A stretch of DNA of 64,000 nucleotides from Sipunculus nudus. Its lineage: Eukaryota > Annelida > Sipuncula > Golfingiida > Sipunculidae. Both the position numbers and the translations under genes were made by a program. The notes below the pieces were generated by a model that had not been told where the DNA came from, searched no databases, and was given only the letters and a program-made list of their open reading frames with translations. This document shows positions 27,541 to 58,524 of the stretch, piece by piece (positions within the stretch are counted from its first letter, which is position 1; the number at the start of each line of letters is the position of its first letter). The stretch spans positions 62,630,917 to 62,694,916 of the forward strand of contig CM049319.1 in the NCBI GenBank assembly GCA_026874595.1, read 5' to 3'.

Positions 27541-29430
27541 TAGATGTGTCGGAACGACACGAATGCCCCCGCCTGGGGCAAATTAGAAACATTTGTTAAA
27601 TTTTGTAAAATTTTTTAAGTTCAGGAGGTGTTGTATGGTCAAAAGTAGGTCAACAAGGGCAAAATGCAAACTCGATCTGTAAAGGGTCATTATCAAGCAA
27701 CACACCAAAAATCAGGCCATTATATGCAGGCATTGTGAAAAAAAGTCCATATATGTGCATTTATCATGAAAATTTCTGTCTTTCATGAAATTTTCTATGT
27801 TCAGGATCTGTCATATGGTAAAAATAGGTTAACTGGGACGAAACGCGAACTCGATCTGTAAGTGGTCATTATGGGCCCACAGACCAAACATTAGGCCTGT
27901 ATCTGTAAGCATTGCATTGCAAAACTAGAATATTAGCAAAAGTTGATTATCATTTATAAATTTCAATTGGAGAGTTTTATACCATGTTTCATAACAATCC
28001 ACCAAATGCTTCCTGAGAAATAAGCTCCTAAGTTTTTTTCTATACTAAGCTCTGTAACCTTGAAAAGTAGGTCAAGATCACCCATCTTTGAACTTGACCA
28101 AGATTTTGTAAATATAATGCAATAGCACTGAAGAAATGAAGTTCCTGTGTTGAATACCTTTGGAGATATCCTGCACAAAAGGCCAAAATTGAAAACATCC
28201 TATAAAATTTCATTAAAAAATCAGAAATTGCAGGTGGTGCCACCGAAATTGTGCCGCACATACAGACCATCAGTCCCAATGATCATAGTAAGTTTTGTGA
28301 AAATCCACACAATGGTTCCTGAGATATAAACTTCTGAGTGTTTTTCTATAATCAGCTCTAAAATGTAGAAAAATGGGTCAAGGTCACCCATCTTCGAACT
28401 TGACCGAGATTTTATCGATATACATCTTGACTGATGAAATAAAATTCCAACGGTGAATCCTTTTAGAGATATCCCGCTCACAAGGTAAAAGTTAACAGGC
28501 GCGGAACGGACGGACGGACAGACACCGGACAGACAGATGGACGGACGGACAGACGGACAGCTTGGGTGACGACAATAGCCCATCAGCCTATGAGCTGAGG
28601 GCTAAAAACGGCTGTACATTTGTATTTGTCATGAAAATTTCTATTTTTCATGAATTTTTCTAAGTTTAGGAGCCGTAAAACGGTCAAAAGTAGGTCAACC
28701 AGGACGAAACGCGAACTCGATCTGTAACTGGTCATTATCTGCCCACACACCAAAAATCAGGCCAATATCTGCAGGCATTGCGAAAAAAAGTCTGTACATG
28801 TGTATTTGTCATGAAAATTTCTATTTTTCTTGAAATTTTCTAAGTTTAGGAGCCGTAAAACAGTCAAAAGTAGGTCAACCGGGACGAAACACGAACTTGA
28901 TCTGTAACTGGTCATTATCTGCCCACACACCAAAAATCAGGCCAATATCTACAGGCATTGCGAATAAAAGTCCGTACATGTGTATTTGTCATGAAAATTT
29001 CTATTTTTCATGAATTTTTCTATGTTTAGGAGCCGTAAAACGGTCAAAAGTAGGTCAACCAGGACAAAACGCGAACTAGATCTGTAACTGGTCATTATCT
29101 GCCCACACACCAAAAATCAGGCCAATATCTACAGGCATTGCGAAAAAAAGTCCGTACATGTGTATTTGTCATGAAAATTTCTATTTTTCATGAAGTTTTC
29201 TATGTTTAGGAGCCGTAAAACGGTCAAAAGTAGGTCAACCGGGACGAAACGCGAACTCGATCTGTAACTGGTCATTATCTGCCCACACACCAAAAATCAG
29301 GCCAATATCTGCAGGCATTGCGAAAAAAAGTCTGTACAACTGTTTGATTTCGGAATGACGGAATGACGGAATGACGGACATGGGTAAAACTATATGCCCC
29401 GGCCACTTTGTGGCGGGGGCATAAAAAAAT
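27541..29430 (+). mobile_element. GGCGGGGGCAT-ended element with 180-bp tandem units
   Basis: The left end has the palindrome GTGTCGGAACGACAC (27547-27561) followed by AATGCCCCCGCC. The right end is a 31-bp hairpin (29393-29423) finishing GGCGGGGGCATA, then an A-run. The ends are inverted copies over 11 bp (ATGCCCCCGCC/GGCGGGGGCAT). The inside is a tandem array of 180-bp units: two before a nested insertion (27580-27925) and four after it, phased exactly at 28621, 28801, 28981 and 29161. A (GGAATGAC)n run precedes the hairpin. No protein is encoded. Confidence 0.85.
27926..28604 (+). mobile_element. Nested insertion inside the 180-bp array
   Basis: The 180-bp unit is interrupted after 'gcattgcattgcaaaa' and resumes at 'acggctgtacatttgtatttg'. 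The insert carries 'gaacttgaccaagattttgt' twice (diverged), a GGTGGTGCCACC palindrome (28233-28244), a GGACGGAC-rich run (28503-28560) and a terminal hairpin (28576-28604, TAGCCCATCAGC pairing with GCTGAGGGCTA) followed by AAAA. Confidence 0.8.
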
Positions 29431-29514
29431 AATTAAACAAACATCACTGCTGAAATTCTGGCATAGGTGCACACAACACAAAAACTAGAATACCGGTAGT
29501 CAACAAGCAACTAC

Positions 29515-30870
29515 ATGTATCTGCCAAAATCAGAGTGGGCTGGGTGAAGTGAAGCATGGATTGAGTGGCAAGGGGAAATAGAGTGAGATGTGTTGCATAA
29601 TAGCTTGGATGTCTGCAGCCAAACTGTTAATGTAGATTACGCCACCTACCACAAAATCAAGAAAGCTGTCCAAGTTTTATACATATGCAAAATTTTAGGC
29701 AGATAAGTCAGACCACTACTTGTATGTGAGGGATTTTATCCCACAGCAGACAAACAGAAGGACGCTGTGCACAAATGGTGGCAGGTGGCACCACAAATTT
29801 TGTGTATGATTAATAGCTATGTGAGATCTATACACATGCAAAATTTCAGGGGGATATGTCAAACCAGTCCTGAGATTTAAGCCTTAATGTCTGCAGCGTA
29901 TACATAAATGTAGGTGGCCCCACCTGCCACAAAATCAAGAAAGCTATCCAAGATGTATAAACCTGCAAAATTTTAGGCAGATATGTCAAACCACTGCCGA
30001 GATATAAATGATTTTTTCCCAAGGCAAACAAACAGACTAAAAGAGCTACATGAGATCTATAAACATGCAAAATTTTTGCCAAATCGATCAAATGGTTCCA
30101 AAGATATGAGCTTGGATGTCTGCAGCGTAAATGTGAATTAAGGTGGAGCCACTCGTCATAAAATCAAGAAAGCTGTCAAGGATGTATAAATGTATAAACC
30201 TGCATAATTTCAGGTGGATAAGTCAAACCACTGCTGAGATATGAGTGATTTTATCTCATGGCAGATGAACAAATGGAAGCTGTGCAAAAATGGTGGCAGG
30301 TGGCATCACCAGTTTTGCATATGATAAAGACCTATGGTAGATCTATACATATGCAAAATTTTGGCCCAACTGGTCAAATGGTTCCTGAGATATGAGCTTG
30401 GATGTCTGCAGCTTAAATGTGAATGTAGGTGGTGCCACCTGTCATAAAATCATGAAAGCTGTCCAGGATATTTACACATGCAAAATTTCAGGTTGATAAG
30501 TACAACAAATGCAAAGATATGAGTGATTTTATCCCAAGGCAGATTAACAGATGGATGCTGTGCAAAAATGTTTGCAGGTGATGCCACCATTTTTAGTGTA
30601 TGTTAAAAAGCTATCCAAGGGGTACATTTGTGCAAAATTTTTAGCCTGATTGGTCAAACGATTCCCAAGATATGTGGGTTTATGTGTGGAAACAGACACA
30701 CAATTGGACGCTGGGCAGAGAGGAAAGGTCAGAGGTCAACCAAAAATGAGGGCGAACCTTCAGAGTTCTCCAGAAACCTGTGCATCCGTAGCGGTGGCAG
30801 CGGCGTCCGCCTTTAAACATAGTATCCACAAAACTCTGTTCTCGTGGATACAATGATTGTAGCTGGTACC
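29515..30870 (+). repeat. Repeat array A, copy 2 (~1.35 kb)
   Basis: Same order of modules and same head as 15335-16690 ('gagtggcaaggggaaatagag', 'gtgagatgtgttgcata'). The tail has 'gaggaaaggtcagaggtcaa' and 'catagtatccacaaaac'. A GGTGGTGCCACC palindrome lies at 30428-30439. Weak extra modules continue to about 31190. Confidence 0.9.
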
Positions 30871-31194
30871 ACTAGTGCTGTACATATATACATATGCCAA
30901 ATGTCAGATTGATATGTCAAACAGTGAAATAAGCAGGGACACACTGTGCAAAAATTATTGTAGGTGGCACCACCAGTCTTGTACAAAATAAAGCTACTAG
31001 ATATGTATAAACATGCCCAATTTTAGGCTACTGTATCAAATTCCTCTGTAGAAATAAGCAGGCGCATACACTGCAAAAGTAAATATATAGGTGGCACTAT
31101 ACCTGTTTTGTAAATGAGAATACCATCAAAGACACATAGACAGGTCAAAATATCAGGCCAATACATCAAACTTCCCCAGAGTTTGAATCACTGC

Positions 31195-31620
31195 GCTGAC
31201 GAGGCTCAGGTGAGTAAGGCAGTTGCCCACAAGTGAACTTTGACAAATTGCTGTCTCAAGCTACTGCGCTGAGTGAACCCTTGACCTGGACCTGGCTAGA
31301 CTGAGTGAACTTTTGACATCTACTTGGCTGCACTGAGAGAACTCTTGACCTGTTGCATAATCTGACATAGTTGGCAGTCTGCCAAAACTATGAATAGATC
31401 CAGGCTGAACTTTGGTGCCCAATCTGATGCAGTGAGCAGTCTGCCATAGCTAAAAATAGAATGCAGCTACTGCACTGAATGAACACTTGACCTATACCTG
31501 CTGCACTTCTTCCATTCCTGGCACTGTGCCAAAACTATTTATAGAGCTGACATCATCTTGGCCAATGGCCAACATCAAGGCACTGGCAATCTGCCAATGG
31601 TAAACCAAGTGCTGCCATCT
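31195..31620. repeat. Degenerate tandem repeat (cactga..gaac..cttgacctg)
   Basis: Recurring 'gctgcactgagtgaac..cttgacct' and 'gcagtctgccaaaactat' blocks with irregular spacing. A related block is near 63895-63935. Confidence 0.5.
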
Positions 31621-31624
31621 GTAC

Positions 31625-32215
31625 ACAAAAGTGGTCCCAACTTGAATTAACTTTGAAATTAATTTTCCCAATACAAAATGCTTTTCAGATGATTTTTTAT
31701 AAAAAAGAAATCAGGAATATATGTAAAATTATTACAGATGCATACTGAATGCAAAATTAAAATACAGATACATCTCATTGATGGCAAATTCTTGAATTAA
31801 GTTGAGTAGGGATACCAATAATTTATGATCCATGTACAGTTCTTTATATACAATCAGAGAGCTTAATATCCATGATTGTAACATTGCCTGATATGATGAA
31901 TAACTTAAATAAAAAAACTTTCTTGTCAATATTAACCAAAGATAACCTGAAATCCAAATGTCTAGTGACATGATGTAATAGATGCTGATAAACTGGTGCC
32001 AGGCTAGATGTAACAGCAACACACACCTAACATATATGGTAAAATGACTCAATTCAATCTCCACACTTCAGCCAAAAAATCATTCATGTGCAACCATAAA
32101 TGACAATTTTTATAAGAATTATTGTAGAGATTATTCTTGTAAAATATTTAACAAACTTGCTTCAGTGGCATCAGTTGAAAAACGCTTCGCAGGTTTATAA
32201 CACATAAGGAAGATA
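31625..32215. other. No gene seen
   Basis: AT-rich single-copy sequence. Minus-strand open frames here show no recognisable protein features. Confidence 0.45.
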
Positions 32216-32217
32216 CA

Positions 32218-33490
32218 GCAAACTGGCTAAGTTTAGCTTCCCGTAACCAGCCAAAAAGCACTGAACCAAAACCTTTTGAACAAACTTGAATTATCAACAT
32301 CTGAGGATAATTAATGTGTCAGATTTAAGATTTGGCCCGGTGGTTTTTGAGAAGATCTTTGTAGCCACTGAGCTAAAATGAGCTATTATGGCATATGACT
32401 AAATTCAGCTTCCCATATACGCTTTTTACACAGCACATTATCCATAGGCCAACTACCTATATTATAAGCCCTGTTTGTTATGACCTTGTATCCTGAATCC
32501 TTAAACCAGAGGGGAGCACTGTATTTTGGTCCAATCAGATAAACCCTGTGCTGGAAGCAAAACGGCTTACCAGCCAAGCGAGGAGTACACAAAGCCAATG
32601 TTGTTCATTTCGTTTTGAGTGACAGCGACCGTTTAAATAGGCCAAAGGCTCAGAGAGAATCGCCCCACATGTGGTTTCTGGGCAGAGACTGATGCCTGTC
32701 AAATGTTTGTTGACTTGCATTTGGTTGGCTGATAGTCACGTCAGCAGTTTCTTAAGCAGACAGGCCCATGTGCACAACCTGGTGTTTAAATGCATCATAA
32801 ACGTTCAAAGCAGACAGCGTGAAAATAAGTAGCTTCTTTAGAAGCGCAAGATTTCCGCTGCCTCAGGAGCATACTTCCCATAACTCAGCCAAAAGTCACT
32901 AAACAGAGACCTTTTGAACAAACTTCAGATCACCCTAGGATCATTTCTGTGCAATATTAAACAATTCTTCTGTATGAAAGGAGATTTTTGTAGCCCTTAG
33001 TGTGATATAGCCACTGATGACCCCGTTCATAAAAAGGCTGGTGGAGGTGGCGCCACCAATACCTCAATTTTAGATATGACTCATGTGACCAACACTGGCA
33101 TAAAATTTGGTGATGATAGCTCCAGCCGTTTCTGAGATTAAAAATTTTAATATGCTTATATGGACAGATGACTAAGTTCAACCTCCTGTTCAACCTCAGC
33201 CAAAAATCTCCGAACTGGAACCATTCAAACAAACTTGAGAGAGATTGTTCAAGGGATCATTTCTGTGAAATATTGGATAATTTGGCTGGAAAGTTTCAGA
33301 GAGGAAGATTTAATAAATTTTTTTTTAGCTTTTTCCCTATAAAATCTCAGAAAATGCAGTTAAAAAAGAAATAAACAAAATCCGATAGAGTTTTCAGATG
33401 ACTGTTTATTTGCAAATGTGACATGTGATGCTAGCTCCTGCCGTTTTTGAGATAGCTATGGTTAACGTACAGACAACGCACGAGGCACGA
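32218..33490 (+). repeat. Repeat family F, interrupted by a DNA transposon
   Basis: Two or three diverged modules carry 'cagccaaaa..cactgaac', 'ccttttgaacaaacttgaa', 'gatagctccagccgtttctgag' and 'gatgactaagttcaacc'. A perfect GGTGGCGCCACC palindrome lies at 33046-33057. The module text resumes across the insertion at 32418-32873. A further copy is at 63480-63720. Confidence 0.75.
32418..32873 (+). mobile_element. Non-autonomous DNA transposon M, copy 1
   Basis: 456 bp, flanked by perfect 9-bp duplications CTTCCCATA (32409-32417 and 32874-32882). Termini are TACGCT... and ...GAGCATA (imperfect inverted). Internally it shares 'tttgttatgaccttgtatcc', 'agaggggagcactgtatttt', 'gtccaatcagat', 'ggctcagagagaat' and 'tagcttctttagaagcgcaag' with the copies at 36627 and 41836. 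It is inserted in repeat family F. Confidence 0.93.
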
Positions 33491-33499
33491 TGAGATATA

Positions 33500-34915
33500 A
33501 GCAATTTTCACCGAAAGCACATGTACAGATGGACACCACAGAAAAGCGATTGCAGATGGTGCCACCAGTCTTATGTACAAGATGGAGGACTCCAAGATCT
33601 ATGATTATGCACAATTTCAGGCCAATAGGGCAAACCACTCCTCAAAAAAGGGCATTAATTTAGTCTACAAAAAACGGAAAGGTAGGTGGCACCACCTGTC
33701 TGGTTTATGAGAAAACTTTCAAAGATTGATGGACATGCCAAATTTTAGACAAATACCTTGAACCACTCTGGAGAAGCAATTTTCACCAAAAGCACATGTA
33801 CAGATGGACGCCACAGCAAACCGATTGCTGATGGTGCCACCTGTCTTGAGTAAAAGATGGAGGAGAGCAAGATCTATGGATAGGTACAATTTCAGGCCAA
33901 TAGTGCAAATCAATCCTCATAAAAGGGCATTAATTTATTCTTCAAAAATGGGAAGGTAGGTGGTGCCACCTGTCTGGTTTACAAGAAAAACTTCCCAGAT
34001 GGATGGACATATATGAGCTTTTTCACTCAAAGCACATGTACAGATGGATGCCACTGCAAATTATTGCAGATGGCACCACCAGTCTTGAATACATGATGGA
34101 GGTATCCAAGATCAATGTCAATTTTAGCCCAATCTGTTAATTAGTTTTAGACTTATAATGCTCACAGTACTGTCAAGTGGCAATGATGAGGTATTACAAG
34201 GCACAAAAACAAAAGAAAGACAGAAGGGGGTGCCACCTGTTTTCCGTAAAAGACAAAGCTATCCAAGATCTTTGGTAAATTTGATTTTTGGACCAATGCA
34301 TGCATCCCTTATTGAGATATTTATCATTTTGTGTGATTTTCACCATATATGGCAATATTCAAGGTCAAGGCCACTCTCATAGGAAAGGTCATGACCCCAA
34401 TTTATAAACATCATCCCATAAACCATGTCTATGTATATGCATAATATGAAAGAAACCTGTCCATTAGTTTTTGACTTATAATGCTCACAGTACTGTTAAG
34501 TGGCAATGATGGGGGTATTAAAAGGCACGAAAACAAGAAAAGGATAACAGGTGGTGCCACCAGTTTCCAATACATGACAACTCTAAGATCTTCAGTCAAG
34601 TTGATTTTTGGATCAATCCATGCAAGATTTCTTGAGATATTTAAGAATTTGTGTGATTTTTCCCCAAAATGGACCTATTCAAGGTCAAGGTTACTCTCCT
34701 AGTAGTAAAGGTCATGACCCAATTTTGAATAGGCTTCTTCCTCTCACCAATATCTATGCACATGTCAAGTTTGGTAAAGATCTGTAAAATATTTTTTGAG
34801 TTATCGCGTCCAAACAAAATCTCTGCGGAGGAGGTGCTAGCGGAGATGGCGCAACCATGCCTAAACCATAGTATCTCCAGACTTTGTCTGGCGATACAAT
34901 TACTATAATACTGCC
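33500..34915 (+). repeat. Repeat array C
   Basis: Three units at about 33519, 33790 and 34033 ('gcacatgtacagatggacgcc', 'gcagatggtgccaccagtct'), then two units 323 bp apart at 34158 and 34481 ('atgctcacagtactgt', 'agtggcaatgatg'). The end is 'cacatgtcaagtttggtaaag' and 'catagtatctccagactttg'. GGTGGTGCCACC palindromes lie at 33959-33970 and 34550-34561. Confidence 0.88.
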
Positions 34916-38094: not shown

Positions 38095-38905
38095 CATAAA
38101 TAGAAATGATAATGAAGGTGAAGGAAGAAAAGTGCCAAAATAGCAAGTAAGAAAGGAAAGTTCCCAAATAACAAGTAAGGAAGGAAAGTTCCCAAATAAC
38201 AAGTAAGGAAGGAAAATTCCAAATAACTAGTTAGGAAGAAAATTCCCAAATAACAAGTATGGAAAGAAAGTTCCCAAATAACAAGTAAGGAAGAAAAGAT
38301 CCCAAATAACAAGTTAGCACAGAATTTTCAAAATAACAAGTAACAAAAGAAAGTTCCCAAATAACAAGTAAGGAAGGAAAATCCCAAATAACAACTAAGG
38401 AAAGAAAGTTCTCAAATAAAAAGTAAGGAAGGTAAGATCCAAAATAACAAGAAAGGAAAGAAAGTTCCCAAATAATAAGTAAGGAAGGAAAGATCCCAAA
38501 CAACAAGTAAGGACAGAATTACAAAATAACAAGTAACGAAGGGTAGTTCCCAAATAACAAGTATTGAAGAAAAGTTCCCTTTGAACAGTTAAAGAAGGAA
38601 AGCTCCCAAATAACAAGTAAAGAAGGAAAGAGTACTAATAAGCAAGGAAAGATATTTCCCAAATGATAAGTTAGGAAGGAAAGTTCCCAAATATCAAGTA
38701 ACAATGGAAAATTCCAAAATAATAAGTGACAAAGGAAGATTCCCAAATAACAAGCAACGAAAGAAAGTTCCCTAATGACAAGTTAAGATGGAAAGTTCAT
38801 AAATATCAAGTAACGATGGACAGTTCCAAAATAACAAGTGACAAAGGAAGGTTCTTAAATTAACAAGCAAGGAAGGAAAGTTCTAAAATAAAAAGTAAGG
38901 AAGTG
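38095..38905 (+). repeat. 28-bp minisatellite, about 28 diverged copies
   Basis: Unit is 'gttcccaaataacaagtaag' plus 'gaaggaaa', with many substitutions and small indels. Antisense frames stay open in pieces and give repetitive hydrophobic peptides. These are not taken as genes. Confidence 0.93.
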
Positions 38906-39510: not shown

Positions 39511-40409
39511 TGGGCCCTTTAGTGGAGAACCATTAATACTGCTGGTTCAACAAATGCAGATAATCTAAATAAAAGCTGAGTTTATTGTCTCTACAAGGAT
39601 TATAAAGATAAGTTCCATTCTTTCTATATATACAGCTGAGAATTATTCAGAAGATTACAGACTTCGGCAAAATGAAAACATTTGTTTTGGGACCTCACAG
39701 AGAGAAACCATGCAATACCATTGTCATTGGTACATGATTAACCATATAGTACAGCTGCTTAAAAAAAATTAAGTGTTTTATTGTAAAATGATTTATTCCA
39801 ATTAATAAAGTTGACTTCATTTGCTAAACTCCATTATTGATGTAATAAACTGATCTAATTCAGCAGTGTTAATACATGGAACATTGTATGCATTTTGGGT
39901 ACATATGAATATGGTTTCTGAGATTAGTTTATTATTTGCTCAACAGGTAGCAGCACCTGATGAACAAATCTGCAAGAGCTCCTCTATTACAGCAAGTGAA
40001 GACTAAAAGAAGACGTCAATGTCAACATCTACAAAGTGGATGATCATACTGGTTTTGAAAAAAAGCATGAAGGGGTAATTTATATTGCACAGTATACAGT
40101 CAATAGGACAACAGAGAATTTAATATTTCATTCTTATAGCAATGAGAACCATTATTCATAGGACTAAACCCCCTACAAAGCTGAGAAATGCATCTTGACT
40201 GATATTTAATCTAAGTTTGCTAACTTAATGTGAATAAAGCTGTATATTACATATATCTTTAACCAGAGTAATCACTTTTTGGGATGAATGGAAGAGAATC
40301 ACATATACAACTGAGAGCTCAGCTGAAATAAAGCTAATAGATGAAGAATACTGTGAATGTACACAAGGTTAATTGAGAGATGCCCAACAGGCATCACTCT
40401 GAGTGAAAA
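39511..40409. other. No gene seen
   Basis: AT-rich single-copy sequence. Confidence 0.45.
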
Positions 40410-43713: not shown

Positions 43714-44908
43714 ACAAGTAACCCATTTGTCATGACACTCAGCTGACTAGGAAGACATTCAGAAAGCAAATTTTATCATCTGAGTGACAAATTTTGAAGG
43801 TGGTATCCCCATTCAACTGTAGCTATTAAAGTTCTTCAAAATCAACAAGAAGAAAACGTTTCATGATGACATGTCCAGCCATTCCCATGAAATCTAGCCT
43901 TTTTGTATGCAGTACGTCAGCTGAGCTTGACATGACCATGCACACTTTTGAGGGACATCCTGGATGTCAAGACAGAAGATTCTAGGTCCAACATTAAAGT
44001 TCTGTACCCTGTCTGACTGTCTTTGTGCTTAAGATGTTTTTTGCCGGTAATATTGGTCTCCATTACCTAATTTCAGGTTCCCATGGAGACTGCCCAAGAC
44101 GTTTTGCCAGTAGCACATAAATATAGGTAACCATGACCTAATTTCTGGTTTCCATGGTGATTGCCCAAGCCTTCCCTGTATAGAACATTGGAACATTCTA
44201 GGGTTAGCAGATACAATTTGTGCCCATTTGATTTTCAGGGTGCTTAAAATCATGTTTTTGGCCCTTATTTAACAAAATTAAGGTCACCATGACCTAATTT
44301 CAGGTTTCCATGCAGATTATCCCAGGACCTGCCTGAATGTCAAAGTAGAAGATTCTAGGCCAAGCAGATACAATTTGAGCATTGTCTGACTTAGAGAGTG
44401 CCCAAAATCATGTTTTTAGCCTGTAGTTCACAAAAATTTTCAAGGAGTTTGGCCTTGTAACTCCTTGGATGTACAGTTAGAAGTTTCTAGGTCTAACAGT
44501 TATGATTTTTGCCCTATTAACAGACGAACTGCTTCATCTGAAGGTCTCAAAAATTAAAAATGCATAAAAATTAGAACAAGTGACCTGGGGGTCATGACAA
44601 TCAGCCAACTAGGAAGACATTAACAAAAGGAATGTTAATGAATACCAAATTTTGTAGGTGTTTTCCTCATTCAACTTTATTATTCTTTGGGGTACTCAAA
44701 AGCCCCATAGCTCAAAGGATAGAAGTCACAGTGACCTAATTTCAGGTTTCCAAGGAGATTTTTCATGGTCCTCCCTGGATGACAAGTTACAAGATTCTAG
44801 GTCCAGCAGTTAGATTTGTGCTTGGTGAATGGACAGATGGACAGACAGACGGACGCCAGGCAGAGACTGATCACTTCAGCTCAGATGACTTTCAGTCAGC
44901 TTAGCTAA
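43714..44908 (+). mobile_element. Family D elements with heads and hairpin tail
   Basis: Two heads (ACAAGTAACCCATTTGTCATGA at 43714, ACAAGTGACCTGGGGGTCATG at 44576) are followed by 'gacctaatttcaggtttcca', 'ttctaggtccaacag' and related blocks in several diverged modules. A GGACAGACAGACGGAC run precedes a terminal hairpin (44877-44907) and AAAA. No coding capacity is seen. Confidence 0.75.
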
Positions 44909-45284
44909 AAATTACAAATGGTGCCACCAGTCTTCAGGAAATGATGAAATACTCCATGATCAATATGCATGGAAAAATCATGGTAATCAATGCATTAGTT
45001 ATTCAGATATATTTAAGCTTTTGTGTTCAATTTTAAAAAATATTCTGGGGGGGGGGGGGGGTGCTTAGAAGCCCCATAGCTAGAAGGATACAAGTCATAG
45101 TGACCGAATTTCTGATTTCTAAGGAAATTTTTAATGGGTCTTCAGTTAGGAGTTTCTAGGTGCTGCAGTTATGATTTATGCCCTGTTAACAGACCAAAAG
45201 ACGGACACCTAGACAGATTGATGGATGGACGAGGGACAAATAGTGATTGCTATAGCTCAGAGGACTTTCAGTCAGCTGAGCTAA
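44909..45284 (+). mobile_element. Family D unit with second hairpin tail
   Basis: Begins with 'ggtgccaccagtcttcagga', has a G tract at about 45047-45061, and ends in a GGACG run and a terminal hairpin at 45253-45283 (TAGCTCAGAGGACT, loop ttc, AGTCAGCTGAGCTA). Confidence 0.75.
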
Positions 45285-46660: not shown

Positions 46661-47395
46661 GACAAAACAAGTGACCCATGGGTCATGACGCTCAGCTGAA
46701 TTTGACATGTATACAGGTTATGCACGTATTATTAACTGATGCTATGATCTGATAAAAATATTTGTTAAGGAAACTTGAACAATGGGAAGAATGATTTCCA
46801 GAGGGCTCAAATTCATGTTTTTTGGCCAACAGTCCTCAGATAATATGTTATAGTGAGAAGATTTACTAGGTAAGAAGTTTCTGCTACCACTTGTGTCCTT
46901 CTGACTAACAGGGTACTTAAATCATGTGGTATCATTCTGCTCATGGAATATAGGTCATGGTGACCTTATTTTGGATGTCATAGGAGACATTACAATTAAC
47001 TCCCTTTATATTAAGAAAGACATTTCTAAAGCAAGCAGTTAAGATTTGTGACCTGTCTAACTTTCTTGGTGCTCAAAATAAAAGGTCACCCTGACCTTAT
47101 TTCAGGTTTCCAAGGAGATTTGCCCGAGACTTCCCTGTATATTCCATGGTACATTCTAGGGTTAGCAGATACAATTTGTGCCCATCTGATTTTCAGGGTG
47201 GTAAAAATCTTGTTTTTGGCCCATAGTTCACAAAATATAGGTTACTGTGACCTAATTTCAGGTTTCCATATAGATTTACCCAGGACCTGTCTGAATGTAA
47301 TGTCAGAAGATTCTAGGCCTAGCGGATACAATTTGTGCCCCATCTGTTTGACTGGGTGCTCAATATAATGCATGTCTTCGGCCTGTATTTAAAAA

Positions 47396-50021
47396 ACAAG
47401 GGACCTATGGGTCACGACGCTCAGCTGTTATATAAGATTAAAAAATATGATTTAGGAATGAGGCATATGCTGGTTTGGTGTGGTAATAAATATAAGCTTT
47501 ATTATGAGTTGTTGGTGTTTAGCTTATGTATGATTATGATATTATCTTTGGAGACAGGGAATAGGATTGATTTCATTTATTTTATTAACAAATGGAGTAC
47601 TATTGTCACACAGATTTTGACTTGGCCATATAACTTATAAGCAGAACATATGATATAAGAGTTTAACTATTTATTAAAAAAAAATTACAAATATTGTCCC
47701 AAATATAATTTTTATTAAAAATAATAAGAGAATCTTATGATTTTTTAAAATGAATTATAACTGAAATGATTATTAAAATAATATTAAAGAATATATTCAT
47801 GAATGCATTCATGAATACATTTTGAAAGTATTTGCACTGGTATTCATATACTTTCATTTTTACCTGAATTCCAATTCTTTATGCAAGACATTTTATAATG
47901 GAGTACACATTCATATTCGTATTTAAATACAATTGCAAAGTTTTCCCACCATTACTGGCATTTATTCAGTTTTCACCAAACAATGATGTTGAGAATCCAG
48001 AATATACAAAATTCACACATTTAAATTATGATCAAAAGTACCTGGTTTTATGGCTTTTATTTATATTAAAAAAAAAAATGTAATATATTCATTTTGGACT
48101 AATTTCACATCAATGTACACACTAGACACAGTAGGAATCTAGATTAATAATATCAACTGCATCTTTGTCTATCATTAATTTCCTTCATATGATCCTTAAT
48201 GATTAGTAATGAATAATATGATTTTATTTTTTTATCATTAAAATTGAACTGAAAAATACCATAGGTGACTGCATGGTGTTATTTGGAGTACGTGACATTC
48301 TATCCATCGATACAAGATTCTTTTATCATCAGTAACTGCGAGTTGATTTCCTGTTATTATAAACTAACAAATTCTTTTTTATTTTTCTTTAATTTGTTAT
48401 TAAAAAACAATAAAAATTTATTAATTTATTGTTAATTGTTATGTTGTTGGTTAAAACTACTAGATGAGTTGGGTTGGACACCTGGATCAACTGTGGCTGG
48501 CCATAAGCTGCCTACCTGCAACAGTGTATGGCTCGCCTCAAGCATGCATAATTTGCTGAAAGTTCAACAAGGTCAACATACAGGTGACTCAAGAGGGGCT
48601 GGAGAGAGTTAAGGTCTGACATGGTCTCATAAAAACATTAATATGCGCTACAATTTTTGGCCAATTTCTTTCAGCTTTCTAAACTAAAAAGCTGAAATCC
48701 TTGTGTGCATGATATGAAAATTATATCAACCGTGCTCACAGGAAACAAATGTGCCATGGTCAAAGTTGGGCAAAATTTAAGGTACTAATTTTATATTTAT
48801 ACTAATAACATATAAATTTGAAAAATTCAGGACTAATTTGGGGTATTCAATTGAATCTTGATTAAATAATGTTACATCCCTGGCAAAAAAACTCTAGCTT
48901 CAGCAATCCCCTTGTTAAGGGAGTAAATATATTTCTTTACATAGTGCATTATGTTTGGGCCCATAACTTAAAACAATTACGCAATACTGACATCATTTCT
49001 GGCATATGCATAGAGAATGTATACAAAAATATGTATATTATATATGATTAAAGTCACATCAGTGGTTTTGATATTAGGCAGTCTTGAAGTGTAACAATGG
49101 GTTTTTAATGGAAAAATGAAGTTTTTCATTAATATCTCGAAGGTATTAAGTCCTAGTGACCAAATTCTTGGCATGGTAGGGAATTTTGGAGACATCTAAT
49201 TGTATGCCAAATTTTAGGAACTGAGAGCTGAAGCTGGGGAGCTGAGCTCTTGCAAACTGCATAACACTAGCTTGATGTAAACAATTTGTTACATGGTGCT
49301 TGAAAACTTGAATAAAATCTACAGTTTTTGATCAACTGGTTTCAAATTTTTGGTGTTAACAGACAAAATGCTAACAAAAACATGCTGAGAAAATTAAATC
49401 CACAGTACTTACAGTAAAAAAACGTGCCATGGTCAAAGTTGGGCAAAATTTAAGGTACCAATTTTTTATTTTTGTTAATATTTTAAAAAATTCAAAAGAT
49501 TTTGATCTAATTTTGGGTATACAATTTAATTTTGATCAATTAAAGTTATATTACTGGAAAAAAAGTCCATAGCTTTGACAGGTTTTGTGTTAAGTGATCA
49601 AATATCTTTCCTGATTTTTTACAAAATGCATTATGTTTGGGCCCATAACTTTTTTAAATTATACAATACAGACATAATTTCTGGCATGTACATAGGAACT
49701 ATATAGAAGAATATTATATGGTAAATATAAGGGAAAACAGATGAGTGGTTTTGATATTAGGCAGTCCTGAAGTGTGAAAATAGGTTTTTAATAAAAAATT
49801 GAGGTTTTTCCTTAATTTCTCAAAGGAACGAAGTCGCAAAGACCCAGTTTTCGGATTGGTAGGAGATCTTGGGGACATCTTAACATTATGCTGAATTTTG
49901 GATTCCTAGGTCTTACGGTTTCAAAACGTGCCACATCTATGGACAGATGGACGGACGGACGGACGGACGACGGACAATGGACCACGACTATAGCTCAGAT
50001 GACTTGTAGTCAGCTGAGCTA
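47396..50021 (+). mobile_element. Family E element, 2.6 kb copy 1
   Basis: Head ACAAGGGACCTATGGGTCAC, then CTCAGCTG. It contains two tandem ~675-bp modules with 'gtgccatggtcaaagttggg' (48751 and 49424), a 24-bp palindrome at 47794-47817, a (GGAC)n run at 49950-49970, and a terminal hairpin at 49991-50021. It is closely similar along its length to 53371-55960. No protein is encoded. Confidence 0.9.
49991..50021 (+). other. Terminal 31-bp hairpin of family E
   Basis: Left arm TAGCTCAGATGACT, loop TGT, right arm AGTCAGCTGAGCTA. 13 of 14 pairs form, with the one mismatch at arm position 9. Confidence 0.95.
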
Positions 50022-50279
50022 ATAAAGGTCATCATGACCTTATTTCAGGTTTCCAAAAAGAATTGCCCAGGACCTTCCTGGATGTACAATTGATAACTAG
50101 ATCTAACAATTACGGTTTGTGCCCTGTTATCTTTCAAACTGCATCATTTAAAGGTCTCAAAAATATATACTGCTTCATTTAAAGGTCTCAAAAATAGAGA
50201 AAAAATATGTAAAAATATGGAAAAAATACATCAGTCTTCAGGAACTGGAAAAAAAACACTATTTAATCAATATAGAGTC

Positions 50280-50470: not shown

Positions 50471-51230
50471 GATAAAAGAGGCCTAGAGCCTGTAATCGGT
50501 CAGGCGTATCAAACGATCTCCCACCTGTGTGCGGCAGGCATGTGCAGTGATGCATGCTAGTCACTCCTCGTCACTAAGCTCATTAACATCTTAAGATACC
50601 ACGGTAATCCAGATCATTGCTTTTCTTCGTACATTAACAAGGGCGATGTTTACGATCACATATCATACATAATTAACTCCTGGCCTTTGAAAGGCCGCGG
50701 TTTAAACTTCAGTGACATTTTACCAAGATGATATAAAGCACATGATCTAAACGTTGCTTACGACTGGAAATCCCCTTTAAGGGTCAACGAAAAGCTGGAG
50801 GATTTGTGAGCACTGGAGGAGATACCTGGTAAAAAACCTTAATCGCAGCAAAACTTCAGAAAGTTGACAATGACATGACAATGTTCGCTCCCTGAACAGT
50901 CCTATCATAAAGATGATCAAAGAAGTTTGAGTCATTAATAAGATATCTGGAAAATAAGGCGCAACAGTCGGGCAAAGAATTATTTAGTAAAATAGTTTGT
51001 TACAAATAACATAATAACTGTGCCGCATATTTCCAGAAATTTTACTTCATGACCAAGATGCTACATCTCATTCTGTTTGCAAGTCGGATTTTTGTCAGTT
51101 ATTGCGGCATGTGGCATAAAACTAACAGGAAATAAATTTTAACATGTGCATAAACGTAATTTGATATGCCGTTGTGCAATAAAAATATTCATAAACGTTC
51201 CTGTTTCCTGTTTATTGACGATTTATTTAA
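50471..51230. other. Single-copy, GC-richer patch, no gene recognised
   Basis: 50460-50700 has mixed-base sequence including GCCTTTGAAAGGCCGCGG and CCTGTGTGCGGCAGGC. I see no translatable conserved peptide. Candidate regulatory DNA only. Confidence 0.35.
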
Positions 51231-51234
51231 TATC

Positions 51235-51256
51235 ATATATATATATATATATATAT
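51235..51256. repeat. (TA)n microsatellite
   Basis: About 11 TA repeats. Confidence 0.95.
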
Positions 51257-51961
51257 TAATATATTAAATGTTATGATTTATCTACAAGAAAAATCATTAG
51301 TTAAACTAGGACTGTGTATGAATGATTATGAATTTTTCAAGATTTGCTTCTTGGATGATAACATCTAGTGCTAGAAGCCATACGAAAACAATCGCAGATG
51401 GCACCCCCAGTCTTGGACATGATGATGGAGGTATCCAAGCACAATTTCAGGCCAATATGCCAAATCATTCGTGAGAAAAAGGGCATATATTTATACTATG
51501 AAAACCTTAAGGTAGGTGGTGCCACCTGTCTGCTTTATGAGAACTCTTCTAGATGGATGTACATGTCAAATTTGTACATGACCATAACATTGAACCACTC
51601 CTGAGATATGAGCAATTTTCACCTAAAGCAAATATTGCCACATAAAAAGAATGCAGATGGTACCACCAGTCTGGTATCCAAGATCAATGAACATGCCAAA
51701 TCTAAGCCCAATCTGTCCATTAGTTTTTGACTTAATTGAAATGATGGGGTATTAAAAGGCGTGAAAAAAGAAAAGGATAATAGGTGGCGCAACCAGTTCT
51801 GGGTACATGACAACACTATCAAAGATCTTTGGTCAATTTGATTTTTGGATCAATCCATGCACGATATTTTGGGATATTTAAGAATTTGTGTGATTTTCCC
51901 CCAAAATGGACTTATTCAAGGTCAAGGTCCCTCTCCTATTAAAGGTCATGACCCCATTTAA

Positions 51962-53370
51962 ACAAGGGACCCATGGGTCACATTGCTCAGCTGAATTTTG
52001 GAAAATATTAGAAACTGCAAAATATTTTTATTTCTTTTGGTTTTTCATGTATATTATCATTAGAAAAGCTATGAGAAAATGGCCCTGCTAAAATGAAACT
52101 CTGTAAATTATAGAATAATGGACATGAGCTAAACCATTTAGTGATGTACCAAAGGAACAAATAGGCCTACGGTAAGTGTTATATAAAAGTAACATTTATA
52201 AGGTAATTAAGTTTTCAAAAGTTAAATAAATGGCCATACGAGTTAAAAATTAATCCTACAAAGTTTGACCAATATTCCTAATTTTATTACTAAGTTAACA
52301 GTGTTATTCACACCTGGGCCCTGCCAACTTTAAGAGATATGAATGAAATGCTACAAAGTATTTATATCTTTTAAATCTTGTCAGTTAGCACTTACATTAG
52401 ATCCTAATATTTTATCACATTTGAATATTAGGATTAAATTCCTGAATTTTTTTTTTCTTTAAAAAAATCAAAATTGTCCAAGTCTCATCAATAAGAATTT
52501 ATTTTACATTAAAATTATAAGATTCATCTTGTTTATTAGTCCTGTGTATTGAAGGGGTGGGTGGGGGGAGGGGTCTCCATTGTTTCTGCTCGTTGCTGAA
52601 AAAAATTGTTAATTTTAAGATTCATCTAGTTCATAGTACAGGTCTGTCAAAAGAATGGGGTGGGGGGGGGGGGGGGAGAAAAAGGCTCCCTGTGGTATGG
52701 TATTAACTGCAGACAGCCTGATCAAGCTCAACTCAGTGAAGAGAGGGCTTGCCCTAGTGATGGGATTGCATAACATTATGCCTACAGCCTGGGGAACATA
52801 GAGAGCTGCACTGAATGACCTACAGTGACCAAAGTGGACTACTTGACAATGTAAGGGAATACAACAAGAGCCTAAAAAAAAAATTCAATTCCTAGCCTAA
52901 TTTTGCAGCTTTTATTTTCAAATTTCAGATTTTAAGAGATTAAATCTTTATGTGTACATGCTGTGAAAATTAATTCCACAGTACTTACAGGAAAAAAATG
53001 TGCCGTGGCCAAAGTTGGGCAAAATTTAAGGTACCAATTTTTCATTTTTGCTAATATTTTAAAAAATTTAAAAGATTTTGATCTAATTTTGGGTATACAA
53101 TTTAATTTTGATTAGTTAAAGTTATATTACTGGAAAAAAGTCCTTAGCTTTAACATGTTTTATGTTAAGCGATCAAATATCTTTCCTGAATTTTTACAAA
53201 ATGCATTATGTTTGAGCCCATAACTTTTTAAAATTATATAATACAGACCTAATTTCTGGCATGTACACAGGAACTATATAGAGGAGTAATTATGGTCAAT
53301 ATGAGGAAAAACAGATGAGTGGTTTTGATATTAGGCAGTCCTGAATTGTGAAAATAGGGTTTTTAATAAA
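51962..53370 (+). mobile_element. Family E element, head and partial body
   Basis: Head ACAAGGGACCCATGGGTCAC and GCTCAGCTGA at 51962-51995. The body at 52960-53366 matches 49370-49795, up to 'ggtttttaataaaa', where the next copy's head begins. No tail of its own is visible. It contains G-rich runs at about 52553-52573 and 52659-52677. Confidence 0.75.
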
Positions 53371-55960
53371 ACAAGGGACCTATGGGTCACGGCACTCAGC
53401 TGTTATATATAATAAGAAAATATGATTTAGAAATAATGGTTTGTGTGGTAATAAATATAAGCTGTATTATGAGTTGTTGTTGTTTAGCTTATGTATGATT
53501 TTGATAGTATCTTTGGAGACGGAAGAGGATTGATTTAATTTATTTTATTAACAAATAGAGTACTATTGTCACACAGATTTTGACTTGGCCATATAACTTA
53601 TAAGCAGAATATATAATATAAGAGTTTTACTATTTATTAAAAAAAATTACAAATATGTCCTAAATATAATTTTTATTAAAAATAACAAGAGAATCTTATG
53701 ATTTTTTAAAATGAAATATAACGGAAATGATTATTAAAATAATATTAAAGAATATATTCATGAATGCATTCATGAATACATTTTGAAAGTATTTGCACTG
53801 GTATTCATATACTTTCATTTTTACCTGAATTCCCATTCTTTATGCAAGAAATTTTATAATGGAGTACATATTCATATTCGTATTTAAATACAATTGCAAA
53901 TTATTCAACCATGTCTGGTATTTATTCAGTTTTCACCAAACAATGATGTTGAGAATCCAGAATATACAAAATTAACACATTTAAATAATGATCATAAGTA
54001 CCTGGTTTTATGGCTTTTATTTATATTTTTAAAAAATAAATGTAATATATTCATTTTGGACTAATTTCACAACAATGTACACACTAGACACAGTAGGAAT
54101 CTAGATTAATATTATCAACTGCATCTTTGTCTATCATTAATTTCTTTCATATGATCCCCATTCATTAGTAATGAATAATATGATTCACTTTTTTATCATT
54201 AAAATTGAACTGAAAAATACCATAGGTGACTGCATGGTGTTATTTGGAATACATCGATACAAGATTCTTATATGATCAGTAACTGCAAGTTAATTTTCTG
54301 TTATTATAAACTAACATATTTCTTTTCTATTTTTCTTTAATTTGTTATTAAAAACCAATAAAAATTTATTAATTTATTGTTTGTTGTTATGTTGTTGGTT
54401 AAAACTACTAGATGAGTCGAGTTGGACACCTGGATCAACTGTGGCTGGCCATAAGCTGCCTGGCTGCCCCAGTGTATGCCTCGCCCCAAGCATGCATAAT
54501 TTGCTGAAAGTTCAACAAGGTCAACATACAGGTGACTCAAGAGGGGCTGGAGAGGGCCAAGGTCTGTCATGGTCTCATAGAAACATTAACAAGCTACAAT
54601 TTTTGGCCAATTTCTTTCAGCTTTCTAAACTAAAAAGCTGAAATCCTTGTGTGCTAACATGAAAATTATATCAACAGTGCTCACAGGAAACAAACGTCCC
54701 ATGGTCAAAGTTGAGCAAAATTTAAGGTACTAATTTTATATTTATATTAATAACTTATAAAATTTGAAAAATTCAGAACTAATTTTGGGTATTCAATTGA
54801 ATCTTGATTAAATAATGTTACATCCCTGAAAAAAAAATCTCTAGCTTCAGCAATCCCCTTGTTAAGGGAGTAAATATATTTCTTGATTTTTTACAAAGTG
54901 CATTATGTTTGGGCCCATAACTTAAAACAATTACGCAATACTGACATCATTTCTGGCATGTGCATAGAGAATGTACAGAAAAATATGTATATCATATATG
55001 ATTAAAGTCAGATCAGTGGTTTTGATAATAGGCAGTCTTGAAGTGTAACTATGGGTTTTTAATGGAAAAATGAAGTTTTTCATTAATATCTCGAAGGTAT
55101 TAAGTCCTAGTGACCAAATTCTTGGCATGGTAGGGGATTTTGGTGACATCTAATTGTATGCCAAATATTAGGAACTGAGAGCTGAAGCTGGGGAGCTGAG
55201 CTCTTGCAAACTGCATAACACTAGCTTGATGTAAACAATATGTTACATGGTGTTTGAAAACTTGAATAAAATCTACAGTTTTTGATCAACTGGTTTCAAA
55301 TTTTTGGTGTTAACAGACAAAATGCTAAAAAAAACATGCTGTGAAAATTAAATCCACAGTACTTACAGGAAAAAAACGTGCCATGGTCAAATTTGGGCAA
55401 AATTTAAGGTACCATTTTTTTATTTTTGTTAATATTTTAAAAAATTTAAAAGATTTTGATCTAATTTTGGGTATACAATTTAATTTTGATTAATTAAAGT
55501 TATATTACTGGAAAAAAGTCCATAGCTTTAACATGTTTTGTGTTAAGTGGTCAAATATCTTTCCTGATTTTTATACAAAATGCATTATGTTTGGGCCCAT
55601 AACTTTTTAAAATTATAGAATACAGACATAATTTCTAGCATGTACATAGGAACTATATAGAGGAATATTTATGGCAAATATGAGGAAAAACAGATGATTG
55701 GTTTTGATATTAGGTGGTCCTGAAGTGTGAAAATAGGTTTTTAATAAAAAATTGAGGTTTTATCTTAATTTCTCAAAGGAACGAAGTCGCAAAGACCGAG
55801 TTTCGGCTTGGTAGGAGATCTTGGGACATCTAACATTATGCCGAATTTTGGATTCCTAGGTCTTACGGTTTCAAAACATGCCACATCTACGGAAGGTTGG
55901 ACGGACGACAAACAATGGACCATGACTATAGCTCAGATGACTTATAGTCAGCTGAGCTAA
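53371..55960 (+). mobile_element. Family E element, 2.6 kb copy 2
   Basis: Same layout as 47396-50021: head ACAAGGGACCTATGGGTCAC, 24-bp palindrome at 53755-53778, two ~680-bp modules (54696 and 55378), a GGACGGAC run and a terminal hairpin at 55929-55959. By eye, it differs from copy 1 by scattered substitutions and small indels only. Confidence 0.9.
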
Positions 55961-56120
55961 AAAGGCTTCGTCCTCTCACCCATGTCTATGCACATGTCAA
56001 GTTTGGTATAGACCGGTGAAACATTTTTTGAGTTATCACACCCAACAGGAATCTCTGCCACGGCAGGGCAACCATGCTAAAACCATAGAAATCCCGACTG
56101 TGTCTTGGGATACAATAAGT

Positions 56121-56948
56121 GTATTAAACCTGGTTCATTAATGTACACCACATGAATGGTAAACTAAGCTATAAAATTAAAAGTATAAGGAGTTATTTGA
56201 AACCACAACCATGAGGTTATTTTGCTAATTTTGTTTGAGAAGATAAATATTTCTGACAAAATGGGTTATTTTAACAAAAGATAAATTATCTAAAGTTATC
56301 ATGCTGTAGGAAAAACATGTTACTTCAAATATCTGATTATAAGCAAATTTTTAGAGACAATAAAAAACAAATATTTGGTACATCTGGTACTTGAACACAT
56401 TTCGAAAAAAAAACCTTTATAATAGTATTTGATAAAATTTATTTACTGCTAAGTTTTTCCATATGTTCACACTCATATGTTTGTGTGAGTGTGTGTGTGT
56501 GTGTGCAGTGGTTAAATGTAGAGTATTTCATCGCACACATGACTTGAACAATACAAAATTAATCCATCTTATCAATTTGAGTTCTTGGTTCATTTCAACT
56601 GCTTGGCCTTGTCATATATATTATTTATAATATCGTAACAGTAATAACTGAAATATAAATTTCAGTTATGTTTCCATTTTACAACTTTAAGGAGACTTAA
56701 ATTTGATTAAATAAACAAAAAACATGCTGCTCTTAAGCCTGTGTTACTTACATATATAAAAACACAGAAACAGGCAAATGCGTGAAAATAACATTACTGA
56801 CTTAGACACAAACAAGTGGTTTATGGCAGATCAGTAGCAGCAACAGTGCCACTTACATAAGAATAAGAGCAGTCAGAATGGTAATTTACCTGCGTCAATG
56901 TGTCCAAGGTAATGGCAATCAAAGAGATAGATAATAGCAATTTTTTGT
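56121..56948. other. No gene seen; (GT)n microsatellite
   Basis: AT-rich sequence downstream of UBE2M with a (TG)n run at 56482-56506. Confidence 0.6.
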
Positions 56949-57212
56949 TTTATTTGGGTAAATTTGGCCCAAATCCGATCAAGTGTCCATATTTGTGGAT
57001 AAAACCACGATAAATAAAAAAGTCTGCACCCCCGTTTGTCTTGAACAGCAGTAGTTGGTGCCACCTGGTGGTAACACATACAGCTCCACCTGGTGGCATT
57101 TTTTCCATTAACCTATCTCATTGGCTGCCCGAGGTCTCGCATAGGTTTCATCTTTACCTCCCACTGATGAAAGTAAATCCAGTGACAAAATATCCAAGGT
57201 ATCAGTTTTTGT
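56949..57212 (-). other. Possible UBE2M 3' UTR with AATAAA
   Basis: The first AATAAA on the minus strand after the stop codon that does not overlap the stop lies at 56954-56949, about 260 nt downstream. The stretch also contains two copies of a CCACCTGGTGG-like motif at about 57058-57098. The polyadenylation site itself is inferred. Confidence 0.35.
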
Positions 57213-57353
57213 TTATTTTAAACACCTCTCAAAGTATGTGGACCCTACATAGCCTCCACGCATGGACTTTGAGACATTCTGTTCGAAGAGTCTTCTGTTA
57301 TTCTGTAGGACCTCAGCAGCATCTTTGTTTAGAGGATCTTCAGGGTTTGGCTC
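57213..57353 (-). CDS. UBE2M: UBE2M (UBC12), terminal coding exon
   Basis: This is the last coding exon of the NEDD8-conjugating E2 enzyme. UBC12 accepts NEDD8 from the NAE1-UBA3 E1 and passes it to cullins. Read on the minus strand, the exon follows a cag acceptor (AG at 57355-57354). It encodes 46 residues beginning [20 protein letters not shown] and ending [10 protein letters not shown], then TAA at 57215-57213. From memory of the family it matches the C-terminal 46 residues of the 183-residue vertebrate protein with about four conservative changes (E/D, Q/S, R/K, I/V) and the same length. It corresponds to the C-terminal helices of the UBC fold. The frame is intact with no stop or frameshift, so this is a working gene and not a pseudogene. 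The intron on its 5' side is phase 0. A processed copy is excluded because the preceding exon lies 4.5 kb away with proper splice sites. Confidence 0.96.
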
Positions 57354-57480
57354 CTGGAATATAAAATGTCTTGGTGACAATACTGTCTGTTACACCTTCT
57401 GCATTATTACCACCCTGGATTTTATAATAAATTTATAAATCTTGCAAGTAATAAGAACCATATTGTATGAAAATGTGTAA

Positions 57481-58524
57481 ACAAGGGACCCATGGGTCAC
57501 TGTGCTCAGCTGAAGTTGACCTTGAAGGTAAAAATCTAAAATAATATCAAATGGAGATAAAGTGTAAGAGGAAGAGGTAATAAAGGCCATGGTTGGTTTA
57601 TATGATTGGTTCGTATTGATGTTTAAGAAATTGTTGCAAATAATATTTTGTGACCAAAACATGGTTGCTAGGGGGGGGGGTTATGAGAATTACTGTACAC
57701 CTGTCACAGCAGGGGATCTCCCCCAATGACTGTAACAAATCAGGAACCCTGGCAGAGCTGACTTCCAGTGACCAGGAGTAGGCGGCCTGCATATGGATAA
57801 ACAAAGTAACTGCAATAGAGCCTAAATGAAAAAATTCAATAACTACCCTAATTTTCAAGCTTTTATTTTCAAATATCAGATTTAAACAAATTAAATACTA
57901 ATGTTTACATGCTGTGAAAATTAATTCAACAGTACTCACAGGAAAAAAAACATGCCATGGTCAAAGATGGGCAAAATTTAAGGTACTGATTTTATTTTTA
58001 TGCTAATAACTTAAAAAATTTACAAAATTTGGATCTAATTCTAGGTATACAACTGAATCTTAATTAAACAAAGTTATATACTTGGAAAAAAAAATCTCTA
58101 GCTTCATGTTTAGTGAGTAAATATTTTTCCTGATTTTTTAAAAAGTGCATAATGTCTAGGCTCATAACTTTAAGAAATTACACTTTACGAACTTAATTTC
58201 TGGCATGTATATAGGAAATATATCAGAGAATACTTCTGGTAAATATTAAGGAAAACAGATCAGTGGTTTTGATATAAGGCAGTCCTGAAGTGTGATAATA
58301 GGATTTTTATTGAAATTTGAGGTTTTTCCTTAATTTCTGGAAGGAACGAAGACTCGGTGACCCAATTTTCTGTTTGGTAGGAGATCTTTGGGACATCTGA
58401 CAGTATGCCAAATTTTGGATTCGTAGGTCCAACGGTTTCAAAACAGGCCAGTCTAACGGACGGACAGACGACGGACAATGGACCACGACTATAGCTCAGT
58501 TGACTTACAGTCAGCTGAGCTAAA
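57481..58524 (+). mobile_element. Family E element inside the UBE2M intron
   Basis: About 1.04 kb. The head ACAAGGGACCCATGGGTCAC contains the 12-bp palindrome GACCCATGGGTC (57487-57498), then GCTCAGCTGA (57504-57513). The body shares 'catgccatggtcaaagatgg' and 'tttctggcatgtatatagga' with the larger copies. A GGACGGACAGACGACGGAC run and hairpin (58492-58522, loop TAC) end the element before AAAA. Antisense to the gene. Confidence 0.9.

Follow-up and report, generated by a model that had tools for sequence, protein, structure and literature searches.

One flaw in the 5′ hairpin of probable non-autonomous Helentrons from Sipunculus nudus

Terminal layout of the elements in the window

The window analyzed here is a 64,000-nucleotide stretch of the Sipunculus nudus genome (assembly GCA_026874595.1, contig CM049319.1, positions 62,630,917 to 62,694,916 of the forward strand). 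It contains members of three transposon families, E, G and N, which are very probably HINEs (non-autonomous Helentrons) that read on the minus strand of the window. The elements are a known kind of transposon and are very abundant in this genome. Along the minus strand, the order of parts is a T-run, a 5′ subterminal inverted repeat (subTIR), an adjacent inverted repeat (IR), a GTCC-type microsatellite, the body, a 3′ subTIR, a palindrome and CTWG followed by T. The 5′ subTIR, its complementary IR and the adjoining microsatellite are present in E and G of the window and in families A, N, Q and M described below. The 3′ subTIR followed by a palindrome is present in E, G, A, N and Q. Outer 3′ ends were set at the last base of CTTG or CTAG, which places them at 47397, 53372 and 57482 for the three E copies and at 27540 for G.

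The G element occupies 27540 to 29423, all of its parts being on the minus strand, with its 5′ end at 29423 and its 3′ terminal CTAG at 27540. Its 5′ subTIR and IR form a hairpin (29393 to 29423) with a C·C mismatch at arm position 9, and a microsatellite with an 8-bp unit adjoins the 5′ end (29351 to 29378; CGGAATGA on the plus strand). Central tandem repeats are found at 28604 to 29338 (4.1 copies of a 180-bp unit). The 3′ subTIR (27563 to 27573; GGCGGGGGCAT on the element strand) fits the 5′ subTIR at 11 of 11 positions, and the 3′ palindrome (27546 to 27560; GTGTCGttcCGACAC) precedes ATCTAG and then T. A family N element is nested in G (27925 to 28604, minus strand); it has a bulged 5′ hairpin at 28576 to 28604 and the end ATATTCTAG followed by T, and neither a 3′ subTIR nor a palindrome was seen in this copy. 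The nested N shares its flank with N copies at two other loci (L017 and L018, on contigs 1 and 2), suggesting that N was a passenger of G and multiplied with it.

The E copies are also on the minus strand. Copy 1 (47397 to 50021) has a hairpin with a mismatch at position 9 (49991 to 50021), an adjoining GTCC-type microsatellite (49941 to 49980, limits set by eye), a 3′ subTIR that agrees in 9 of 10 bp (47419 to 47427) and a 3′ palindrome (47402 to 47413; GACCTATGGGTC on the plus strand). Copy 2 (53372 to 55959) carries its hairpin at 55929 to 55959, its 3′ subTIR at 53395 to 53402 (8 of 10 bp) and its palindrome at 53377 to 53388. The corresponding parts of copy 3 (57482 to 58522) lie at 58492 to 58522, 57504 to 57513 (10 of 10 bp) and 57487 to 57498. 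The 3′ end of copy 2 runs directly into the body of another E copy (52956 to 53371, from E position 226), and its 5′ flank has no match to E; this arrangement is not a simple nested insertion and perhaps arose as a tandem or one-ended event. Further E-type 3′ motifs are located at 40317, 46673 to 46699 and 51968 to 51994, and further E-type 5′ hairpins at 44906 and 45253 to 45283, the last of which, a fifth E-type hairpin, has mismatches at positions 9 and 10.

Every position of the window was scanned for hairpins with 14-nt arms around a 3-nt loop, one mismatch being tolerated. Four were found in the 64 kb (the G hairpin at 29393 to 29423 and the hairpins of the three E copies), all with the mismatch at arm position 9, and ten first-order Markov simulations of the window produced none. 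The 31-nt hairpin plan that the initial annotation described as common to E and G is therefore borne out. The same annotation proposed that a motif at the far end is the reverse complement of the right hairpin arm, mismatch site included, and this is exactly so for G (ATGCCCCCGCC at 27563 to 27573) and E copy 3 (GCTCAGCTGA at 57504 to 57513). The exact palindrome GACCCATGGGTC with motif GCTCAGCTGA, which had been ascribed to E, stands for the copy at 57481 and fails for those at 47396 and 53371; these have the palindrome GACCTATGGGTC and the motifs GCTCAGCTGt and aCTCAGCTGt, respectively. The two motifs are one and two bases off, at other positions; at the mismatch site itself, both agree with the right arm. 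As for the nested element, its hairpin does measure 29 nt, and the flaw in it is a one-base bulge with no mismatch. With both position-9 sites left free, the E hairpin occurs at 23,412 places in the genome and is mismatched in all of the first 100 matches listed; the genome-wide listings start at contig 1 and are not random samples.

The minus-strand layout matches the published order of parts in HINEs (PMC7492417, PMC2374699). The “tail hairpin” of the initial annotation is therefore the 5′ subTIR with its IR, and its “head” is the 3′ subTIR with the 3′ palindrome, so that the elements had been read in reverse. Their assignment to Helitron2/Helentron elements (as HINEs) is supported by the subTIRs, the IR, the GTCC-type microsatellite, the 3′ palindrome, a T-rich target without target site duplication (TSD) at the single empty site analyzed and, for E, a Rep/helicase/endonuclease locus with matching ends. 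A canonical Helitron (Helitron1) was considered and rejected: there is no 5′ TC, and the arms begin with TA or GC after T. By the Helitron1 3′ criteria, the CTAG of G, A and N fits CTRR and E ends in CTTG instead, and the 3′ palindromes stop 4 to 8 nt before the element end, compared to about 11 nt for the Helitron1 hairpin. The inverted repeats near both ends might also suggest that E and G are cut-and-paste miniature inverted-repeat transposable elements with terminal inverted repeats and a TSD, but this reading can be virtually dismissed, because the repeats are subterminal and unequally placed, the one empty site (family E) has no TSD, and the protein linked to the E ends is a Rep/helicase.

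Terminal repeats compared between families

Further families were sought with a pattern composed of a T-run, a stem closed by TA...TAT and GTCCGTC, with the reversed pattern as control. The first search returned 3570 + 4633 rows (control, 615 + 619) and the second 374 + 568 rows (control, 127 + 85). Besides E and G, families A, N and M are present among the first 100 matches listed of each search. Family Q was found in the flanks of two Rep-encoding loci (H5 and H6, see below); it is represented by three complete copies of 1999, 1615 and 1835 bp and by 3,029 rows genome-wide, with none in the control. The 3′ ends were taken from two copies of A, two copies of N, the three complete copies of Q and an alignment of four old copies of M. 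The family search was not blind, as the Q pattern required a perfect motif and the A and N candidates were sought by partial subTIR identity; the 3′ end of A was placed independently, by a homology boundary. Among the matches listed, the Q 3′ palindrome takes two forms, TGACC..GGTCA and CGACC..GGTCG, which represent a paired change.

What E, G, A, N and Q have in common is a single flaw within the IR. Relative to the 5′ subTIR, the IR has a C·T mismatch at position 9 in E (C·A in a minority), a C·C mismatch at position 9 in G, and a one-base bulge in A, N and Q. The fixed mismatch position that the initial annotation put forward as a general plan is thus a property of E and G only, the bulges being located elsewhere in the stem. 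At the family level, the 3′ and 5′ subTIRs agree flawlessly over 10 (E), 11 (G), 10 (A), 11 (N) and 12 bp (Q). Among individual copies, E copy 3, G, A1, A2, N3, Q1 to Q3 and the Rep-encoding element H2 show a complete fit. If chance alone decided which of the three repeats is the odd one, the probability that it is the IR would be 0.0041 for five of five families, 0.0014 for six of six and 0.012 for four of four. A stem scan of 167,005 bases (the window and L001 to L014), which allowed 0 to 2 mismatches before a microsatellite and did not cover bulges, gave 14 rows, none of them flawless. E 3′ ends account for 8,824 rows genome-wide, and among the first 100 listed the site that pairs with the 5′ subTIR is G in 99 and T in one.

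Family M is probably a sixth family with the same rule. The 3′ subTIR of M3 fits the column consensus of the 5′ ends at 12 of 12 positions, and the IR has a bulge and more. In one case, M5, both subTIRs share a change that the IR of this copy lacks; its 3′ end fits its own 5′ end over 8 bp in the duplex model. The 3′ subTIRs of M2 and M4 are decayed, and no 3′ end was found for M1. Likewise, no 3′ subTIR was found within about 4.4 kb for subfamily E4 (L021, L022), nor for N1 and N2 (L017, L018), which occupy the same insertion site inside G and were left out of the N comparison.

Target sites and Rep-encoding loci

Junctions were compared in 13 copies (the three E copies, G, the nested N, A1, A2, N3, N4, Q1 to Q3 and H2). 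Each of the 13 is flanked by one or more Ts on either side, and the 5′ arm is preceded by two or more Ts in 12, the exception being E copy 1 (TTTAT). The 3′ ends of the 13 copies read CTAG or CTTG, then T, which is partly by construction, since most 3′ ends were located by CTTG/CTAG and the Q copies were chosen by a CTWGT pattern. Independent support for this end comes from the two A copies, whose homology stops at TTTTCTAG followed by T, and from H4 and C5, which were found by subTIR alone and read CTTG followed by T. The initial annotation called for a comparison with empty sites. E copy 1 lies inside a repeat unit that has a relative without the insertion at 44134 to 44340 (plus strand); the joined flanks align with this paralogous empty site across the junction without duplication, and there is no TSD at this one site. 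Elsewhere in the window, positions 38121 to 38903 are a tandem array of 28.2 copies of a 28-bp unit.

A Rep/helicase element with the same ends, also suggested as a search target by the initial annotation, was found for E. The Rep domain (PF14214) has at least 143 matches in the genome, and seven loci were examined in part. Locus H2 has an open frame of 2342 codons, with Helitron_like_N and PIF1 above the Pfam cut-offs and Exo_endo_phos below its cut-off (22.8 versus 24.5 bits). The H3 frame is 93% identical to that of H2 over 5,979 bases, and Exo_endo_phos_2 is above the cut-off in H3. About 1 kb past the H2 frame and on the same strand is a 3′ end composed of TCAGCTGAGC, TGACCCATGGGTCA and CTTG. 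Upstream, two tandem E-type 5′ hairpins with a GTCC microsatellite are found 4.66 and 3.94 kb before the first stretch examined. The Rep/PIF1/endonuclease frame of H2 lies between both E ends, with 14,884 bp from the outer 5′ hairpin to CTTG. In H2, H4 (a frame of 1658 codons) and C5, TCAGCTGAGC, the GACCCATGGGTC palindrome and CTTG are located downstream of the Rep match on its strand. A G copy is also present in H4, about 4 kb beyond the frame and not around it.

The frames of H2 and H3 (L004:1-5127 and L005:1954-7299) additionally have an N-terminal Herpes_teg_N match and DUF6570. A second Rep group consists of H1, H5 and H6 (L009 to L012, L023 to L026), with open frames of 1436 to 2426 codons; H5 and H6 share more than 19 kb and have satellite-like arrays at their sides. 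When the ends of this group were sought, homology passed into the satellite-like arrays and no E-type ends were found. These flanks revealed family Q, and the Q-type hairpins face away from the direction of the Rep frame.

A possible strand-exchange switch and its alternatives

Helentrons move by rolling-circle replication of one strand. To our knowledge, the means by which a Helentron locates its 3′ end have never been demonstrated. We propose a scheme in which the 5′ subTIR would fold onto its IR to give a hairpin. Once the 3′ end is reached, the 3′ subTIR in the displaced strand would pair with the 5′ subTIR and open this hairpin, and the pairing, together with the 3′ palindrome and CTWG, would mark the site where the strand is cut. 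The one mismatch or bulge kept in the IR would give the exchange its direction; with a flawless IR, the two pairings would be about equally stable. Such a mechanism would extend the pairing hypothesis set out for Helitron2 (PMC3627910). We tentatively suggest, as a reading somewhat less likely than not, that Helentron ends are a tuned strand-exchange switch, in which the 5′ hairpin is one flaw short of perfect and the IR can be displaced by the distant 3′ subTIR.

Pairing energies were modeled with DNA parameters (in kcal/mol) for E, G, A, N, Q and for M1 combined with the 3′ end of M3. In these six families, the modeled energies are −8.4 to −13.5 for the real hairpins, −13.9 to −18.4 for the duplexes between the two subTIRs, and −13.9 to −18.1 for hairpins made flawless. 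The penalty for the flaw is 2.9 to 5.5 kcal/mol; with it, the hairpin is less stable than the subTIR duplex by 3.5 to 7.0 kcal/mol, and a flawless hairpin comes within −1.2 to +1.5 kcal/mol of the duplex. For M5 with its own 3′ end, the values are −4.5 (hairpin), −12.7 (flawless hairpin) and −11.5 (duplex). In the model, the 3′ subTIR is favored over the IR as the partner of the 5′ subTIR, and without the flaw the two are about equal. It is possible that a switch accounts for flaws that vary in type and place between families and leave the sign of the modeled energy difference constant. The flaw may also help an element to recognize its own end.

Several observations weigh against this interpretation or the identification of an autonomous partner. 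The E mismatch site is other than A in 669 rows (in the orientation of the finding, with perfect hairpins counted on both strands), and the first 100 listed comprise 42 with T, 22 with G and 36 rows from 18 perfect loci; a paired neighbor varies similarly, in 417 rows. The subTIR fit is incomplete in E copies 1 and 2 (9 and 8 of 10), N4 (10 of 11) and M3 (11 of 12), and the nested N is without a 3′ subTIR. M is a consensus only, as its five 5′ ends all differ, only the 3′ end of M3 matches, and the 5′ end of M3 itself is one base off. The families are from one genome and may share ancestry or not be independent. The energies are model values for naked strands and ignore tether length, proteins and superhelicity. 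In the published record, one-mismatch subTIRs predominate in all but two of the 11 Cg_HINE elements of the Pacific oyster (PMC7492417), and the 3′ subTIR of Drosophila mojavensis DINE-1 has a single mismatch (PMC2374699). With respect to the partner, an E-type 5′ end beside a Rep frame is seen in H2 only and could belong to a nested HINE. A search of about 11 kb upstream of the H4 frame did not reveal the 5′ end of this element, and H1, H3, H5 and H6 are without E-type ends in the stretches examined. G motifs were sought at six of the 143 Rep matches (H1 to H6, 14.5 kb each), and no autonomous G element was found. Frame direction alone is not decisive, because the Rep frame runs the other way in some Helentrons (PMC4067079, PMC3627910); the orientation therefore rests on frame and layout together.

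Covariation at arm position 9, for which the initial annotation proposed a copy-level test, was not found, the mismatched E base varying about as much as a paired neighbor. For G, 2,527 rows have the C·C mismatch and 207 do not; the first 100 of the latter listed include 71 with T, 10 with A and 19 rows (10 loci) that are perfect. Flawless E hairpins number about 120 of 23,412 if the first 100 listed rows are typical. Individual copies decay like inert copies, and there is no avoidance of the perfect hairpin. If selection operates at all, it would do so on source elements, where only a comparison between families could reveal it.

This lack of copy-level constraint on the mismatched base favors an explanation that treats the IR as a relaxed by-product. 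In this view, the transposase would depend on the subTIRs alone, and the IR would drift and hence show a flaw. The stem of the related subfamily E4 has several flaws, and the IRs of DINE-1 are partial and/or interrupted repeats of the 5′ subTIR (PMC2374699), both in keeping with drift. However, free drift is expected to leave none, one or many flaws across families, and the IR of each of the five families (E, G, A, N and Q) retains the entire 12- to 14-bp arm with one flaw. We regard a drifting IR as a serious contender, if somewhat short of probable.

Alternatively, the flaw could be a directional mark, with Rep reading the mismatched or bulged stem and so distinguishing the 5′ hairpin from the 3′ palindrome. 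Each 5′ stem in the five families has one flaw and the usual 3′ palindromes are flawless and shorter, although some individual copies (A2 and E copies 1 and 2 among them) have a changed base. We consider such a mark unlikely, given that the flaw differs in type and position by family (a mismatch at position 9 in E and G, bulges elsewhere) and so offers no single fixed shape. It is more improbable still that the flaw serves only to keep a perfect palindrome with a short loop from being unstable in the host genome; the 5′ stems are indeed near-perfect palindromes with loops of 3 to 4 nt, but arms of 12 to 14 bp are probably short for such an effect, and the perfect fit to the distant 3′ subTIR would be left unneeded.

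The strand-exchange switch is proposed for elements that otherwise resemble described ones. Helentrons and HINEs of the DINE-1 type (PMC4067079, PMC2374699) also have subTIRs, a partial or interrupted IR by the 5′ subTIR, a GTCY microsatellite, central repeats, a palindrome after the 3′ subTIR, T-rich insertion without TSD and a Rep/helicase/endonuclease partner. Our elements differ from these in the long 5′ stem (12 to 14 bp) with one discrete flaw and in the 3′ CTAG or CTTG followed by T. Pacific oyster Cg_HINE elements (PMC7492417) share the order of parts, the GTCY-type microsatellites and satellite-like central tandem repeats (as in G), whereas the family-level subTIRs of E, G, A, N and Q are flawless, unlike the one-mismatch subTIRs that prevail in most of the oyster elements. 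Helitron2 has comparable asymmetric terminal inverted repeats, the 5′ repeat pairing just downstream and the 3′ repeat lying inside the end, and pairing of the two has been proposed to set the endpoint (PMC3627910); no persistent flaw in the 5′ hairpin is described in the available portions of that paper. The proto-Helentron-Pi of Phytophthora infestans has the same 5′ TT, 3′ CTAG and absence of TSD, but is called closer to Helitrons and inserts between A and T (PMC4067079). In FoHeli1 and 2 of Fusarium, the printed 5′ hairpin stem is, by our own reading, shorter than the 12-bp repeat (PMC5148889). These short stems and the partial or interrupted IRs of DINE-1 (PMC2374699) fit an IR that is the weaker partner. 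In a canonical Helitron, experiments with Helraiser show that the 3′ hairpin works as a terminator (PMC4778049).

No statement of the IR-flaw rule was found in the portions of the Helentron and HINE literature available to us, and one may still be in print. The regularity adds modestly to what is known and can be tested; it is both broader than the plan in the initial annotation and different from it. Helentrons are also the source of DINE-1, the repeat with the most copies in Drosophila melanogaster (PMC4067079). The rule also offers a way to orient non-coding HINEs, the very point on which the annotation went wrong. If, as a rule, the 5′ subTIR pairs more weakly with its IR than with the 3′ subTIR, the pairing hypothesis of 2013 (PMC3627910) would become testable in any annotated genome and in a cell assay.

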